A stretch of 64,000 nucleotides of DNA, taken from Bifidobacterium thermophilum (lineage in GTDB: Bacteria; Actinomycetota; Actinomycetes; Actinomycetales; Bifidobacteriaceae). Position numbers and translations under genes: made by a program. The notes under the pieces are model-generated. The model ran no database searches, had not been told where the DNA came from, and saw only the letters and a list, made by a program, of their open reading frames with translations. The stretch spans positions 1-64,000 of the forward strand of contig JGZV01000001.1 in NCBI GenBank assembly GCA_000741495.1, written 5' to 3'. Numbering within the stretch: position 1 is the stretch's first letter; every line of letters begins with the position of its first letter. Positions 354 through 38,663 of this stretch are shown one piece after another.

Positions 354-3300
354 TCAGTCTCCAAATGAGACTTCAGGCTTACCATCATTCACGGTTACCG
401 TACCTGACAGGGAGAATGAATAATCTTGAGTTTGCGGAGTCCAGGTGTTTTCATCAAACCAATCCTGCTCCTCATACGTCAAGGTCGCTTTGCCGTCTCC
501 GTAATCGGTGCGGAAACTGATTCCGCTTGCATTGATGCCGATGTCTTGCTTGCTGACGGTCGGGAACTTGGTAACAGTCCAAGACATATTACGTTTGCTA
601 TCGGTATTGTAAATATGCTCATTCAGCACGCATGCTTTGGAAGAGGCATCATTGACTTTGCCGCATTTTCCCATCTTCGTCTTGATCGCATCATTGATTG
701 CGGATACCAGCTTGTCTGTCGCTTTGACATCGAGTTGCGCTTCGACCGTGGATTTCGATGAATCGCCCGTCACGTATTTCGTCACTGCAGAAGCAGTGAG
801 ATATTCACTCTTCGGCAGCGAAACCGTGTATGTACCCGGATACACCGTGAACATGAGCGCATCCGAACTTGAATTCGGGTCAGCGTTGCGCTTGGAAACC
901 TTGACGTTGTTCACCAGGACGGTATCAGCAGCGCCGGAATCCTCGACGACAATCGTGGACAGCAGCGGCTTGGACACCACCCACTTGGGGAAGAACAGCA
1001 TGGTATTGCCATCCTTGCGCAGCGTGAGCGTATCTTTGGTTGTCGTTCCATGGACGGAATACTCGATTTGAGCTACCGCTTCGGAACCATTGGCGGACAC
1101 CGAATCGATTTTCGGAGACGACAACGCATTCTTGCCGTTGGCCGACACGGCAGAAGTTAACAAAGCACGCCTGTTCGTGTCGATACCCGGGTCAACGGTT
1201 TTCGACGCGGCATCATAATCACCGGAAGACAGTTGGCTCAAATACGCGTTGGCAGCGTTCTTCGGGTTGAACACCGTCGAGGAAAGCACGCCGATCACCA
1301 CAGCCACCACAACAAGAGCGCCAACAGCGATACCGGCAATCATCATCGCCTTTTTCGCGTTCGGAGACATTGGTTGTGCGGCGGCAGCGCCAGGAACACC
1401 CGGTGCGGTTGGATTCGCGGGAGCAGCCATGGGGACAGCCACCTGGAAAACCTGCGACCCGTTGGCGGTGTTACCGTTCTGCCCGTCACCGTTCGGCGCA
1501 ATGGAAGCCACAGACGAAGGCACAGACGGTGAAGCGCCGCCGGGAACAGCGGCTGCTGGCATAGATGGGTTGGACGAACGCTGGTTCATCGCACGGTTGT
1601 ACTCCAGCACCTCTTTCGGCGTTGGCTGCACCGTGCCGCCAACAACGAATTTCCACAGCTTGGGAACCGAGACGATAACGGACTGGCCGAAGGTGAGAGC
1701 GACAACCTCGACGAGGAAAGACCAGAGCGCCACGATCAGGCAGGACCACATTGCGGGCATGGCGAACACGGAATGTCCTTGTGCGGTACCCCCAACGGAC
1801 AACGCGGCGAACGCATATACCAGCCAAAACAGTCCCGCAGTCAGTGGCGCTTTCCACGCATGCTGCCATCCGGCGTAGGCTGGATCATACATATTCCGGG
1901 CAGCTTCACGAAGACCGAGATACAGCGTGGCAACGACGACCACAAGCACATACAACCAGAACCATCCAAGTCCGCCACTCACCGAAGCAAACTCACCGGA
2001 ACTTCCGAGAAGTCCAACGCTTGCTCCGGCAGCCTCACCGTATACGGCGATTGCGCCAAGCGAACCGAAGCTGAACAAGAATCCGGCAATCATGGGCAGT
2101 ATCGCCGGGAAGAGAAGTATCGATACGGCTTCACCGGAACGGATCGCCACGTAAGCATACAGCACGAGCGCAATAGCGAACGCGAGGATGCCGAACACGA
2201 GCAGTGTTTCGACAACAGTACGCACGAAACCGCGGGCGCGATGGAACCACAGGTGCAAGGCGGTGAATACGTTTGACGCGTCAGGCGTGATTTGCGCGAG
2301 AGCATAACCGATAAGTGCACCGCCTCCGGCGAACAGGAAAGCCGTGAAGAAGGTGCGGACGCTGGTTCCGCTGACTGTAATCGAGGAAATCTGGATGCGA
2401 CCGATCAGGCCAAGGATTTCGTAAACGATACCTGCGGCAACGCCGACGACTGCGGATGACGCGACTCCCATCCATCGCAGGTGGATGGTGTTTTTCCGGC
2501 CGAGCAAGTATACGCCGAAGGCGGTACCCAGGAGGAGGGCGAATCCGGATAATCCTGCGCCCAACCATGCTGATCCGGTCGATGAAGATGAGAAGAATCC
2601 GTCACCTTGGTAGGTGATGGAGAAACCGCCTGCGACGCCTTGGATCATGAAGAAAATGATGGATTGCAGGATGTTCATGTCATGGGTGTTGCCGAACAGA
2701 TTGTCGGATGAGATCGATCCGAAAGCATTGAAGGTATCAGTAATCTGATCAAGCACTGACGAAGATACTGCGAGCGCGAGGATTGCAGTGATGACTGAGG
2801 TCACGAATGCGGCGCCGACACCGATACCGAGTCCAGCTCCACCACTGCGCGCGAGGTTTTCCATATCGATGGGTTGCGCTTGTTGCTGTATGTGTTGCGG
2901 CGGCGCCTGTGGAACAGTTGGTTGAGCGGATGGCGGTTGAGGCATTGTCGGCGTTGAGGAGCCGGACGCGTTGAATTGTTGCGTCGGGTTCGCAATCCCG
3001 GGCGTTGGCAGTTCTACCGTAGGCTGGGATGATGCCGGCATTGCGGGCGTGGGACTATGCAACGGCTGCGTCGCAACCGGCGTCGAATGGTGCGGCTGCG
3101 GCAGGGGCGGCATGCCCATAATCGGTTGTGGTATCGCCGGTACGGTTGCTGGCGTTGCCTGGTTCGACGTTACGTCAGACATGGCGACTGACGGCGTGGG
3201 CGTGGGCGTAGGTGCTTGCGGGACTGCCGGCGCGGGAACCGGCTGGTGCAATGTATCCGCACCTGACACCGATTGTGTCATAGTTGGCCGGATGGCATGC

Positions 3301-9844: not shown

Positions 9845-10153
9845 ATCGACCTCCCTCACGACGCCGACATTGCCGTATTGCCCACATTATAGCGAACGTA
9901 TGGCCGTATCGGATACGCGATGGCACATCTCAGACTGGCATACGGCACGGGGAGGCACAAGCTATTGCCGAACATTTCGAAAGATGCACGAACAAGCGCA
10001 TCGCGCAGGATTAGACCCGTCCGCCCTCGCTGAACGACGGGCATGACCGGGTGGCGGAAGTCACGTGTACCGTACCGTGTATGCCGTGGCATACAGAACA
10101 CGCAGAACAACTGGGACTTATGACCTCAGCTCTTGCACGTCTCGCCGCCGGGT

Positions 10154-10400: not shown

Positions 10401-10408
10401 TGATGAAG

Positions 10409-10481
<73 letters not shown>

Positions 10482-10728: not shown

Positions 10729-11005
10729 TTGTGAGGACCCGCTCACACAACGGCCCATCCGGTGGCCGCAATCACCCATTTAGCCAAGCCACGCACCCAT
10801 CGTGTGAGGATTCACTCACACAACTACGGATAATCTGACCGGAATCAGCCTCTCGACCGGTCAATGCACATTCCATGCGAGGATTGGCTCGCACAGAGCC
10901 CTGCCACACAAGCAAGCCGAACAAGCCGAACGAGTCAATCTCCTAAGCCAATCCCCCAAGCCAAAGTCCCCACAGTTGTGAAAGTTGCGAGAATTCGCTC
11001 ACACA
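10729..11005. repeat. Array of four palindromes TGTGAG-N6-CTCACA, mostly 73-bp spaced
   Basis: Four copies of an 18-bp inverted repeat start at 10730 (TGTGAGGACCCGCTCACA), 10803 (TGTGAGGATTCACTCACA), 10876 (TGCGAGGATTGGCTCGCA) and 10986 (TGCGAGAATTCGCTCACA). Each is followed by CA. Start-to-start distances are 73, 73 and 110 bp. In the third copy both arms change together and keep the palindrome. The intervening sequences are unrelated. The last copy covers the stop codon of tsaD. Two more copies, again 73 bp apart, lie at 38288 and 38361. Confidence 0.8.
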
Positions 11006-14204: not shown

Positions 14205-15188
14205 TTATGCGGCGGGTTTGCCTTTGCGGGCGATCAGTTGGATGGCTTGTTCGAGGGCGTACACGGGGTCACCGCCGTTGGTTTTGCTTTGCTCGTCAGC
14301 CCAGGCGAGCTGTGTGATGCATGCTGCGAGCCCGGCTGAGGTCCATCCGGGTAGTTGGCGCATGGTGTTGCGCATGACCCACGGGTTGACTTTCGCTTCG
14401 GCTTGGCTGATGGTGCCGGCGCGTACGGCGGCAGCTTTGGCGATGGTGCGGAGTTTCATGGCGAGCGCGCCGATGAGAGCGATCGGATCGGTGCCTTGTT
14501 CGACGGCTGATCGCATGGCGATGATCGCTCCGGTGGTGTTGCCGGCCATGGCGGTGTCGGCGACGGTGAAGCCGGTGACTTGCGGGTTGGCGGTCAAGTA
14601 TTGGTTGACTCGATTCAGGCTCATGGGGTTGTCGTCGAAGTCGAAGCATAATTGTTCGCACATGGCGGCGAGTTCGCCGGTATGTTCACCCAGGACGGCG
14701 ACGAGCTGCTGGCATGCTGCGGGTTCGATACGTCGGTTTCGTTGTTCGAATTGTCCGGTGACGAATTGGAGTTTCGCGTCGGTGCGTTTCAGGTCGGCGG
14801 GCTTGTTGATGTAGGCGCCGGTGCGCGTGAGCTGGTCGAGGAGCCGTTTGCCTTTGGGACCGCCTTCATGCTGGGCGATGACGATGCTGGCTTGCTTCGG
14901 GTCGGCGAGCGCTTGCTTGCTGTAGGCGACCATGGTGTCGCCGAGCGGCTCGTCGGCGTTCTGCAGGTTGCGTACGATGACGATGGAAACCGGGGACAGC
15001 AGGGACGGGCTGACGGCTTCGTCGAATGCGTACCGGTCGGCGATTGTGGCGTCAAGTTCGATGAGTTCGGCATCCGGTCGGGCGTGTTGTGCTTGCTGTC
15101 GCAGGTCGCGGACCGCTTGATCGTTGAGATAGGGGTCACCGCCGGTGACGACGCAGAACGGTGCGTGGGATAGTGTCGTGGATGCCAT
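14205..15188 (-). CDS. holA: DNA polymerase III delta subunit
   Basis: HolA opens the sliding clamp within the clamp loader. From the ATG at 15188 the protein is 327 residues. It begins APFCVVTGGDPYLNDQAV, and contains SPVSIVIVRNLQNADEP and the C-terminal LRTIAKAAAVRAG... WVMRNTMRQLPGW typical of the actinobacterial delta subunit. A longer frame up to 15287 would overlap comEC and is Pro-rich, so the inner start is preferred. It sits 31 bp after comEC, in the common comEA-comEC-holA order. Confidence 0.9.
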   Translation of the reverse strand: MASTTLSHAPFCVVTGGDPYLNDQAVRDLRQQAQHARPDAELIELDATIADRYAFDEAVSPSLLSPVSIVIVRNLQNADEPLGDTMVAYSKQALADPKQASIVIAQHEGGPKGKRLLDQLTRTGAYINKPADLKRTDAKLQFVTGQFEQRNRRIEPAACQQLVAVLGEHTGELAAMCEQLCFDFDDNPMSLNRVNQYLTANPQVTGFTVADTAMAGNTTGAIIAMRSAVEQGTDPIALIGALAMKLRTIAKAAAVRAGTISQAEAKVNPWVMRNTMRQLPGWTSAGLAACITQLAWADEQSKTNGGDPVYALEQAIQLIARKGKPAA

Positions 15189-15219
15189 GGTTCCAATCTC
15201 GCGGTATCGGTGGACATCG

Positions 15220-16956
15220 TCATGTCGGAGGCTGACTTGTCGGGGGGCTGGTGTCGGTGCGGGGCGTGGACTGCCAGGAGTCATCAAGCATGGCGCGTGT
15301 TTCGGCCAGCCATGTGGTGATGTGTTCCCCCGCGGGACGACGATACCGTGTGCCGGTGCCGTTGCCGCGAAGCCTGCATGCCGCTGCGATGATACTCATC
15401 ATCATGATTGTCGCGGCGAGCGCGAGGAGACTGCCGCGGATACCGGATGGCCATGCCAGGCTCGCCCATGCAGGCGATCCGCACGCGTGCGCGACCCATG
15501 CCATGACTGCGGTGCCGCAACTGGACAGCCATGCGGCGGCGAACGCGATGGAAGGGGCGAACGGGGCGAGTATCAGGGCGATGAGCCCGGTGATGGTGGA
15601 CCAGCTGACGAATGGGGCGACCAGCAGGTTCGCGAGAGTGGACAAGAGCGGGATGCTGGGCTCCATGAGAATCTGGATTGGCAAGGTCAGGGCTTGTGCG
15701 GCGATGGTGATGCTGACAGCTTGCGCGAGTGTGCGGGGCAGACGGCGGGCGAGCAGCCGTTCAATAGGCTCGTTGAGCAGGGTGATACCAAGCACTGCGG
15801 CCGCGGACAAGGCAAACCCGTAGCTTGTGGCTTTGCTCGGGTCGATGACAAGGATGAGTATCACGCTCCAAGATAAGGCGCTGACGGCTTGGTGACGCCG
15901 TCCGGCGAGCATGGCGAGACTGTTGAACCAGCCCATGGCTAGGGCTCGCAGCACGGAATGTGAGGGGTAGACGAGCCCGGCGAGCCCATGGTAGGCGATG
16001 AGGACGGCGAGCGCAGCCGCCCGCCGCGGCATGCGACATGCGGCGCACGCCCACAGGACCAGTTGGGCGATGAGGATGAAATGGCCGCCGGAAACAGCCA
16101 TGAGATGCATGATGCCGGCGTCGCGGAATTCCTGTTCGACCTGGTTCGCGTACGTGGTGTCAATTTCGCCGGTGTCAGCCGGCCCGGCGTACGACTGGCC
16201 GAGCATGCCGCAGGTGACGCCGGGCACGAGGATTCTGCCTTGGTCGGATAATCGCGCGGTGGTTGCGGCGAACCGGTGACGCATTCGATTGGCGAGCGCG
16301 CGCGGGGCGTTCGGCTGGCTGATGATGGTGAGCGCTGTCATATCAGTGGCCCAGACGGGTTGGCTCCCGTACCGGGCTGGACTGAGTTTGGCTTGGAATC
16401 GGACGTGCATCCCATGGTCGAGGCTGGCGCATTGCTGTCCGACGGCGAACACTCGTGCCGGTGCGTGTGAACGGCCGGCGTTGAACCGGGTGATGGTGAT
16501 GTCGGCCTGGCAGTCGTATCCGCGCACGCTGGACGCAGTCAGCGGCGTGCTGACGCTTGCCTCCATGCTGACGAGTGTCGCTGTGTCGGTCTGGGAGTAT
16601 CGGATTGCTGGATCATGCGCCTGTGATTGACGGTAGGCGTGTACGGTGAACACACCGACCAGCAGGCCGGCGACGGTGAGCAGCATCACCATGCCGGCGT
16701 ACGGCGGACGGCTCACGTTGGAAACCGGACCGGAGCGACGCGCGTATCGGTAGCGGTATGCCGCTGCGGTGCCGATACCGCCAAAGAGCATGATGAAACC
16801 TGCGGCCGCACACCAGAATGTCACCCGTGTGGGGGTTCCTGAACCTTCCAGCATGTCAACGAGCCTGTTGCCTGCAAGCTGTCCTGTCCACACGGCGAGC
16901 GCGACGGGTAGGGCTCTCAGGTCACGCCTGCCGTCCACGCGTACTTGCCGGATCAT
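15220..16956 (-). CDS. comEC: ComEC/Rec2 DNA-uptake channel protein
   Basis: ComEC forms the inner-membrane channel for incoming single-stranded DNA in natural transformation. The 578-residue protein has N-terminal hydrophobic segments, an OB-like extracellular stretch, and the competence core with GIMHLMAVSGGHFILI and LRALAMGWFN, followed by many transmembrane helices. The C-terminal metallo-beta-lactamase domain found in longer ComEC proteins is absent: the protein ends in a short Thr/Pro tail. The start overlaps the comEA stop by four bases (ATGA), indicating coupled translation. Confidence 0.88.
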   Translation of the reverse strand: MIRQVRVDGRRDLRALPVALAVWTGQLAGNRLVDMLEGSGTPTRVTFWCAAAGFIMLFGGIGTAAAYRYRYARRSGPVSNVSRPPYAGMVMLLTVAGLLVGVFTVHAYRQSQAHDPAIRYSQTDTATLVSMEASVSTPLTASSVRGYDCQADITITRFNAGRSHAPARVFAVGQQCASLDHGMHVRFQAKLSPARYGSQPVWATDMTALTIISQPNAPRALANRMRHRFAATTARLSDQGRILVPGVTCGMLGQSYAGPADTGEIDTTYANQVEQEFRDAGIMHLMAVSGGHFILIAQLVLWACAACRMPRRAAALAVLIAYHGLAGLVYPSHSVLRALAMGWFNSLAMLAGRRHQAVSALSWSVILILVIDPSKATSYGFALSAAAVLGITLLNEPIERLLARRLPRTLAQAVSITIAAQALTLPIQILMEPSIPLLSTLANLLVAPFVSWSTITGLIALILAPFAPSIAFAAAWLSSCGTAVMAWVAHACGSPAWASLAWPSGIRGSLLALAATIMMMSIIAAACRLRGNGTGTRYRRPAGEHITTWLAETRAMLDDSWQSTPRTDTSPPTSQPPT

Positions 16957-37236: not shown

Positions 37237-38092
37237 TCATACTGCAGGCCGTTGCGGCCATCCGCCGTCGGGAATGCAGGATTGCTGCCGTTCGACCAGG
37301 AATCCCGCGCGTGACGCCACGCCCAGCAGCAGGACGTTCACCGCATACATGATGACGACGATACCAAGGACACGCATGGTGACACCGGCCGGACCGATAG
37401 CTGCCGTGACGGGGTGCGCCGGGAAGATGCCGCAGTACAGCATCACCGCCAGCATGGCGAGACTCACGACATCGCTTGCCGTATACGCGAGCACTGTAGC
37501 AAGGCCCGCATGCCGCCGTCCCCCCGCCGGTGTATCCGCCCCGGCACAGCGCACGCACGGCCAGGGATGACAGGGGGCCCGACGGTCCTTGGCGCGTGGC
37601 TCCCCCGTCGCCCAGCAGGTAGCAGGACGCCGTGAGCTCGTAGAAACTCCAGCCGATCAGCGGCATGAACATCTCATACCTGAGCCTCAACGTGTTGATC
37701 CCGCCGGCGTCGAAGCCTTCGCAGCTGGTCTGGATGCACCATCCGGCAAGCGCGCCCGCCACCACGATAATCACGATCCTGGCGATGGTCAGGGCGCGCA
37801 GCATCTTGGCGGTCCGCTGCGACGCGACCACCCTGCGGCATTCGATTGTCACATGATCAGCGGCATCACCGTCATGGCCGGTCGTGTCCCACGGCAGCGA
37901 CGTGCCCGTCCACACCGGAGGATGGTCGTCAAAACAGCATGACGGGCAGGCTGGCTCGCACGCCTGATACCACATGCGGCACCACGGGCACCGGACGTAC
38001 GGGCCGGAACCCGTGCCTTCCGACCGGCGTGACCAGTACATCAACGCGATTGCCGCCACCAGCCATATGAGATTCGCCGTCAATACCATCAT
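37237..38092 (-). pseudogene. Multi-pass membrane protein with Cys-rich segments, frameshifted
   Basis: The ATG at 38092 is preceded by AGAGGTGACG. The first frame gives a transmembrane helix (VLTANLIWLVAAIALMYW), a Cys-rich loop (CPWCRMWYQACEPACPSC), and two more hydrophobic segments ending at LLGDGG. At a run of five C on the plus strand (37602-37606), removing one base continues in the frame ending at 37237: EPRAKDRRAPCHPWPCVRCAG, then hydrophobic segments VVSLAMLAVMLYCGIFP and VLGIVVIMYAVNVLLLG. As written, the first frame runs on as meaningless sequence to 36143. The intact protein would be about 285 residues with four or five helices and a probable zinc site. Function is unknown. Confidence 0.6.
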
Positions 38093-38285
38093 CGTCACCT
38101 CTGATGCAATCGTATCGGAAATGCCATGACAGTAGCGCTGCCTGGACAAGCGACAAGTCGGGAATCACGGGTGTTGCGCCTGCCGGAACCGGGGCGGCGC
38201 CATGGCATACAAGCGTTTGACATGCGTGGCGGAACGCGCCGCCATCGGAAAAGGCAACAGAGCCGGGACATCCGTTGACAGCCGT

Positions 38286-38380
38286 TATGTGAGGATTCGC
38301 TCATACACCATGCCATCCAATGGCAACAATCAGCATTATTCACGAATCAGCTACCCACGGTGTGAGGAACGACTCACACA
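38286..38380. repeat. Second array of the TGTGAG-N6-CTCACA palindrome, 73-bp spacing
   Basis: Two copies start at 38288 (TGTGAGGATTCGCTCATA) and 38361 (TGTGAGGAACGACTCACA), exactly 73 bp apart, the same step as in the array at 10729-11005. The region lies between the start of the membrane-protein gene (38092) and the tRNA-Gln terminator (38487). No gene is seen in 38093-38486. Confidence 0.8.
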
Positions 38381-38513: not shown

Positions 38514-38592
38514 TTGCGATGCCCCAGCCGGCCCCGGACTCGCAGGGCTGATTGGCACAGGTTCCGCATTGCGTCTGCGGAACCGTTTCGGG

Positions 38593-38663
38593 TTCCCCCA
38601 CCTGGACTCGAACCAAGACAAAGGGTTCCAAAGACCCGTGTGCTGCCATTACACCATGGGGGA
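38593..38663 (-). tRNA. tRNA-Gln (TTG)
   Basis: On the minus strand: acceptor TCCCCCA pairs with TGGGGGA, discriminator A. The anticodon loop CTTTGGA gives TTG. The first pair of the anticodon stem appears mismatched (C-T). The T arm has GGTTCGAGTCC. CCA is not encoded. Confidence 0.93.

Follow-up and report, generated by a model that had tools for sequence, protein, structure and literature searches.

Described intergenic repeats close to the arrays reported here include the neisserial intergenic mosaic elements (NIMEs) with their dRS3 element, a palindrome with 6-bp arms (ATTCCC...GGGAAT) for which the available part of the account gives 672 copies and 89 NIMEs (PMC3046118). In both systems, many intergenic rows are found in which a 6-bp-arm palindrome alternates with other sequence. 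The palindromes differ (ATTCCC-N8-GGGAAT in dRS3 and, here, TGTGAG-N6-CTCACA, hereafter class A) and the step is here fixed at 73 bp. NIME units are of variable length. There is also a likeness to REP and BIME elements, with more than 100 extragenic palindromes per genome organized in composite rows. However, BIMEs alternate in orientation, whereas the bifidobacterial arrays keep one orientation (75/83) and a fixed spacing. Inter-REP segments without mutual homology have been described, as far as the available text goes (PMC2817692). The RAYT profile PF01797 gave no match in the genome from which our sequence comes (hereafter the home genome), and the positive control was found in 5 of the 14 named genomes.

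The arrays resemble CRISPR loci in their palindromic repeat, the near-constant length of their spacers and the gain and loss of units. They differ in being many, short and dispersed, in the degenerate centres of their repeats and in a body of sequence shared by the spacers of class A. The dif site has arms of about 11 bp around an asymmetric 6-bp centre, and class A half-sites show what we take to be a candidate likeness to the operator half-sites of lac, Rex and SlmA. Within the bifidobacteria, B. animalis subsp. lactis carries the palindrome GGGACAG-N15-TGTCCC, with 20 of its 21 copies intergenic in the available part of the report (PMC5217627). This palindrome is likewise bifidobacterial and intergenic and differs from ours in sequence and size; a fixed step is absent from that part of the report. 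Among the papers listed by our literature search, titles and abstract openings gave no account of these 73-bp palindrome arrays.

We analyzed a window of 64,000 nucleotides that opens contig 1 of the 2.1-Mb home genome. It contains class A palindromes at two loci, with the following neighbouring features:

10408..10481, minus strand: tRNA-Asn, next to locus 1 and judged unrelated
10730..10747, plus strand: class A palindrome opening the locus 1 array downstream of tsaD
10803..10820, plus strand: class A palindrome of locus 1, step 73
10876..10893, plus strand: class A palindrome TGCGAGGATTGGCTCGCA of locus 1, step 73, symmetric changes in both arms
10986..11003, plus strand: class A palindrome of locus 1, step 110
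37237-38149, minus strand: small membrane-protein gene to the left of locus 2, with an apparently broken reading frame
38288..38305, plus strand: class A palindrome TGTGAGGATTCGCTCATA of locus 2, one mismatch (right arm)
38306..38360, no strand: 55-bp spacer joining the locus 2 palindromes; its counterpart in B. boum (L081) is 98% identical
38361..38378, plus strand: class A palindrome TGTGAGGAACGACTCACA of locus 2, starting exactly 73 bp past 38288
38591..38663, minus strand: tRNA-Gln, 213 bp right of locus 2, judged unrelated

An earlier, sequence-only reading of this DNA had noted that the palindrome recurs at a second locus, 27 kb away, with the same 73-bp step. The starts at 38288 and 38361 bear this out, as at locus 1, where the steps are 73, 73 and 110. 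By direct reading, the right arm of the palindrome at 10986..11003 provides tsaD with its TGA stop codon (10999-11001, minus strand). In the B. boum stretch L081, the palindrome at 38288..38305 has a perfect-arm counterpart and the membrane-protein gene is intact (2294-3232, a 312-aa frame). Allowing one mismatch, the window contains five sites where 0.16 are expected, and none of 100 shuffles reached five. With up to three mismatches, 15 sites were found for 26 expected, which is not significant; it is therefore the near-perfect sites, together with their spacing, that carry the signal. It had also been pointed out that both loci lie near a tRNA gene. Both indeed adjoin one, but no general link emerged: of 24 further arrays in the home genome, only L020 has a tRNA gene within 1 kb, and the proximity seen at the two loci is judged coincidental.

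The array family is lineage-specific, carried by a small set of gut bifidobacteria, and extends far beyond these two loci. The home genome contains 131 class A sites with at most two mismatches, against 24 for the reversed-pattern control. With at most one mismatch, four genomes are conspicuous among the 112 of the genus (G046 with 181 sites, G119 with 179, G049 with 108 and the home genome with 90); G077 has eight sites and the remaining 107 genomes have 0-7, level with the control. We infer from shared sequence and matching coordinates that G119 is B. thermophilum, G049 B. boum, G046 B. apri and G077 B. minimum. Exact pairs of sites separated by a gap of 45-70 bp were found in five of the 112 genomes (103, 55, 32, 20 and 1 pairs), and the control pattern gave none in any of them. 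A chance origin can therefore be rejected on both counts, that of the window shuffles and that of the pair control, and the view that motif and spacing would not recur by chance was confirmed.

A scan of named species for pairs returned 79 stretches, 68 of them from B. thermophilum, B. boum and B. apri, one from B. minimum (L041) and one from Pseudoscardovia radai (L098), which has three sites with steps of 73 and 73. Nine stretches came from outside the Bifidobacteriaceae: seven of them (L040, L052, L061, L084, L088, L099 and L108) appear to be unrelated repeats or chance matches, and the two from Myxococcota, L043 and L056, resemble an ordinary CRISPR array. Our working set comprised 89 loci (20 stretches of the home genome, the window and the 68 named stretches), and the clade counts exclude these nine stretches, L098, L041 and the duplicates L001-L004 and L025-L030.

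Among the clade spacings (adjacent sites within 400 bp), 328 of 367 measure 72-74 bp, and over the 89 loci they divide into 27 steps of 72 bp, 217 of 73 bp and 84 of 74 bp. The named stretches were chosen for holding a pair. The loci of the home genome were chosen by a single motif regardless of step, and 40 of their 51 steps also fall at 72-74 bp. The unit of 72-74 bp consists of the palindrome with its 6-bp arms, a 6-bp centre and a spacer of about 55 bp, and arrays contain from 1 to 13 sites.

A second palindrome, class C (CGTATG-N6-CATACG, extended form GTTGYGYATG-N6-CATRCRCAAC), presents the same step, with 40 of 51 class C steps at 72-74 bp. It is enriched in the same genomes as class A (94 copies in G046, 48 in G119, 29 in G049 and 17 in the home genome, with 0-5 in other genomes). 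We also searched the clade de novo, considering every palindrome that recurs at a step of 50-100 bp. Unrelated palindromes with a 6-bp centre yielded 12 pairs at 73 bp, 11 of them made up of class C, and at most three at any other step; no preferred step besides 73 bp was found in this search. The length of the centre is constant, at 6 bp, in classes A, B and C. Class A spacers present a mean identity of 0.473 within arrays and 0.338 between arrays, which indicates a weak common body; the corresponding values for class B are 0.319 and 0.283, with 0.269 for shuffled sequences. By eye, a stretch of B. boum (L073, 6463-7000) contains a degenerate row of TGTGACGGAACGGTCACA-like palindromes with steps of about 72 bp. 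A lone class C-like palindrome (TGTATGCCGTGGCATACA) lies at 10078-10095 of the window, left of tRNA-Asn.

Based on gene calls from a simple codon-based gene finder, the 103 arrays have 463 of their 465 sites outside genes. These arrays occupy 44 co-directional, 28 convergent and 18 divergent gaps, with 12 more at an edge and one overlapping a gene; the convergent share is 28 of the 90 classified arrays versus 79 of 471 gaps. Six arrays overlap the 3' end of a gene by 5 bases. A single loop orientation was observed in 75 of 83 class A arrays (centre GATTSG), and it shows no relation to the gene strand: 19 arrays have the same and 18 the opposite direction in co-directional gaps, and the two orientations number 13 and 12 in convergent gaps and 7 and 6 in divergent gaps. 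No regulator common to the neighbours of the arrays was found among the 45 gene clusters listed, which are mostly orthologous neighbours. In L007 (13348-16009), class B arrays flank a 379-aa reading frame (14367-15506) whose C-terminal part resembles, by eye, a Vsr/DUF559-type nuclease. All four species carry a further inverted repeat between genes, TTCTGCCGACGCTGAGA...GTCGGCAGAA, which lies towards the right end of the aligned gap in L020, L082, L091 and L062.

The sequence-only reading had proposed that strains be compared at the two loci for gain and loss of copies in 73-bp units. Arrays are present in 48 of 197 orthologous intergenic pairs, and such gain and loss is seen in these orthologous arrays: the order of the spacers is kept and many are at least 90% identical, beside units found in one species only. 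For instance, the B. apri array L047 matches spacers 1 and 2 of L006 from the home genome with its spacers 6 and 7, and spacers 1 and 2 of L107 from B. thermophilum with its spacers 5 and 7. Similarly, L060 of B. boum has two sites and L011 of the home genome has one, with matching outer flanks. In B. apri, blocks of one and two units (~147 bp) recur within and between loci with 75-100% identity. The outcome that would have refuted the sequence-only reading, two loci appearing as unrelated sequences in related genomes, was not observed: locus 2 is kept in B. boum as a two-site array with a spacer 98% identical, and locus 1 corresponds to arrays of four sites in B. apri, at least three in B. 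boum and at least two in B. thermophilum. B. apri, B. thermophilum and G077 lack an array in the stretch homologous to locus 2, and G077 also lacks one in the stretch homologous to locus 1. Comparing empty and filled sites gave no clean insertion junction, since the intergenic DNA is too diverged.

We further analyzed the constraint acting on the palindromes and on the spacers. Across 505 copies, arm positions 0-3 change singly without compensation (at position 2, 55 changes on the left, 57 on the right and three doubles). Positions 1-6 of the extended class A arm show no covariation either. Positions 4 and 5 of the arm covary somewhat (z 8.0 and 3.5), as do position 7 (z 7.2) and, weakly, position 8 (z 3.6) of the extended arm and the first outer pair of class B (z 7.5). 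Across the spacer, only scattered pairs covary. The absence of compensation at positions 0-3 and at extended positions 1-6 suggests a site in duplex DNA rather than an RNA or cruciform stem. The covariation evidence is mixed, and on balance the palindrome probably represents a duplex site with two half-sites.

The 58 orthologous spacers contain 22 indels, all of 1-3 nt. In contrast, 154 of 248 indels in flanks and plain intergenic DNA exceed 3 nt (0/22 in spacers; p = 2e-9), although misalignment may have raised the count in flanks. Spacers and flanks have small indels at like frequency (6.9 and 7.2 per kb), and substitution rates are 0.057 in spacers, 0.049 in flanks and 0.056 in array-free intergenic DNA. 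We then compared sister species (the home genome with B. boum, and B. apri with B. thermophilum). The arms differ at 11 of 324 positions versus 94 of 2419 in the flanks (p = 0.76), and the centres at 15 of 162 (p = 0.0027), which is 2.4 times the flank rate. We therefore see no present selection on the palindrome, as the arms drift at the rate of the flanks. This presents a puzzle: palindromes stay alike across copies and spacers do not, though both drift about equally between sister species. The likeness of the arms across ~500 copies despite this drift implies that either the palindromes are renewed by exchange or the units were young when made.

Our preferred explanation, which we hold tentatively and at somewhat short of an even chance, is that the pair in the window is a small array of a lineage-specific, BIME/NIME-like family of intergenic mosaic repeats whose palindromes act as duplex binding sites. 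The palindrome would be recognized as duplex DNA by a putative homodimeric protein. The 73-bp step is close to seven turns of 10.45 bp (73.2 bp), which would place bound dimers on one face of the DNA, from where they could bridge or wrap it. Units might be lost by recombination between palindromes and might spread by the copying of one- or two-unit blocks. This explanation is supported by class C, which has the same step and the same host genomes, and by the contrast between 0/22 spacer indels over 3 nt and 154/248 elsewhere. Counted against it are the arms diverging as fast as the flanks, the centres diverging faster, the covariation of arm positions 4 and 5 and the equal frequency of small indels. 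The arrays might bring a benefit to the host (nucleoid organization, insulation between genes) or might represent a selfish BIME/NIME-like repeat. Should the step prove to be a protein ruler, the arrays would offer a ready test bed for the organization of intergenic DNA in bacteria. To our knowledge, few nucleoid proteins have been described in Bifidobacterium, a genus of wide probiotic use.

Alternatively, the arrays could be purely selfish, REP/BIME-like palindromes copied by a transposase or by replication slippage, with the 73 bp reflecting the copying machine. We regard this as a genuine possibility, yet a rather doubtful one. It accounts for elements that are intergenic and lineage-specific and that are copied and lost as whole units, for the 147-bp blocks at several B. 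apri loci and for arms that decay at the flank rate. However, the home genome encodes no Y1 transposase (PF01797), dead repeats are not expected to lack spacer indels over 3 nt, and class C shares the step in spite of its different palindrome. If the arrays are selfish, they constitute a palindromic repeat family in a genome without a Y1 transposase and with a fixed unit length left unexplained. Under either reading, the gain and loss of units could serve for strain typing.

A putatively Cas-less, CRISPR-like accumulation, in which each unit would add a copy of the palindrome and a fresh spacer of measured length, appears very unlikely. Class B spacers are mostly dissimilar within an array and nearly constant in length, and orthologous arrays have some spacers in common and differ in others, as such a process would predict. 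Against this, class A spacers carry a weak common body and the arrays are dispersed and short. Moreover, a 961-bp class B array gave no phage or plasmid match, locus 1 gave no plasmid match and no pair was found in viral contigs.

We consider it highly improbable that the palindromes are tyrosine recombinase sites built like dif, with an asymmetric 6-bp centre between arms of ~11 bp. The centre that keeps its 6-bp length in classes A, B and C and turns over at 2.4 times the flank rate is compatible with such sites, as is a single inverted centre between B. apri (L047, 6007) and B. thermophilum (L107), GATTTG versus CAAATC, a match with one clear flank (100% identity on the left and 64% on the right). 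Yet the five array genomes have only 2-6 PF00589 matches, two of them strong in each, no array-specific PF00589 member was recognized among these five genomes, and 73 bp would be too short for the excision of a circle. Finally, RNA hairpins acting as terminators, mRNA stabilizers or small RNAs are a most improbable source, since arm positions 0-3 are uncompensated, the arrays have no link with the gene strand and an Rfam search of four sources matched tRNAs only (gathering score), even though arrays are relatively frequent between convergent genes.

We extended the analysis to 20 other genomes, sampled in 40 stretches of 20 kb. Rows of palindromes with a 53-bp step (~5 turns) were found in two of them, G063 and G006. 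The rows of G063 consist of the palindromes TGACCAGACTGGTCA and GTACCACGGTGGTAC at a 53-bp step; those of G006 consist of TTGTCTA-N7-TAGACAA (CATGTTGTCTA-N7-TAGACAACATG), with steps near 53 bp:

L122, 19028-19715: row of G063
L123, 2430-2694: row of G063
L123, 17768-18010: row of G063
L128, 7200-7400: row of G006
L128, 8910-9400: row of G006

L127 and L136 have rows with steps of 123-159 bp, which by sequence look like tandem tRNA genes. In Pseudoscardovia, L098 contains an additional 72-bp row of another palindrome, and in B. minimum, L041 contains both class A and class C rows. These rows suggest, on a small sample, a family habit of changing palindromes at whole-turn steps. They also bear on a broader and more speculative reading, which we judge unlikely: an architecture shared across the Bifidobacteriaceae, in which lineage-specific rows of palindromes would be laid at whole helical turns by a length-measuring machine and read by a face-aligned protein polymer. 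This reading takes in the 73-bp arrays of the boum/thermophilum/apri group, B. minimum and Pseudoscardovia radai, and the 53-bp rows of two further species. If true, it would define a chromosome element based on a ruler and distinct from CRISPR, REP and operator alike. The de novo scan also returned two weaker candidates, a 54-bp row of ACCCGGGGTTCCGGGGT-like palindromes in G040 (L145, 19696-19804) and a row with a step of 52 in G045 (L114).
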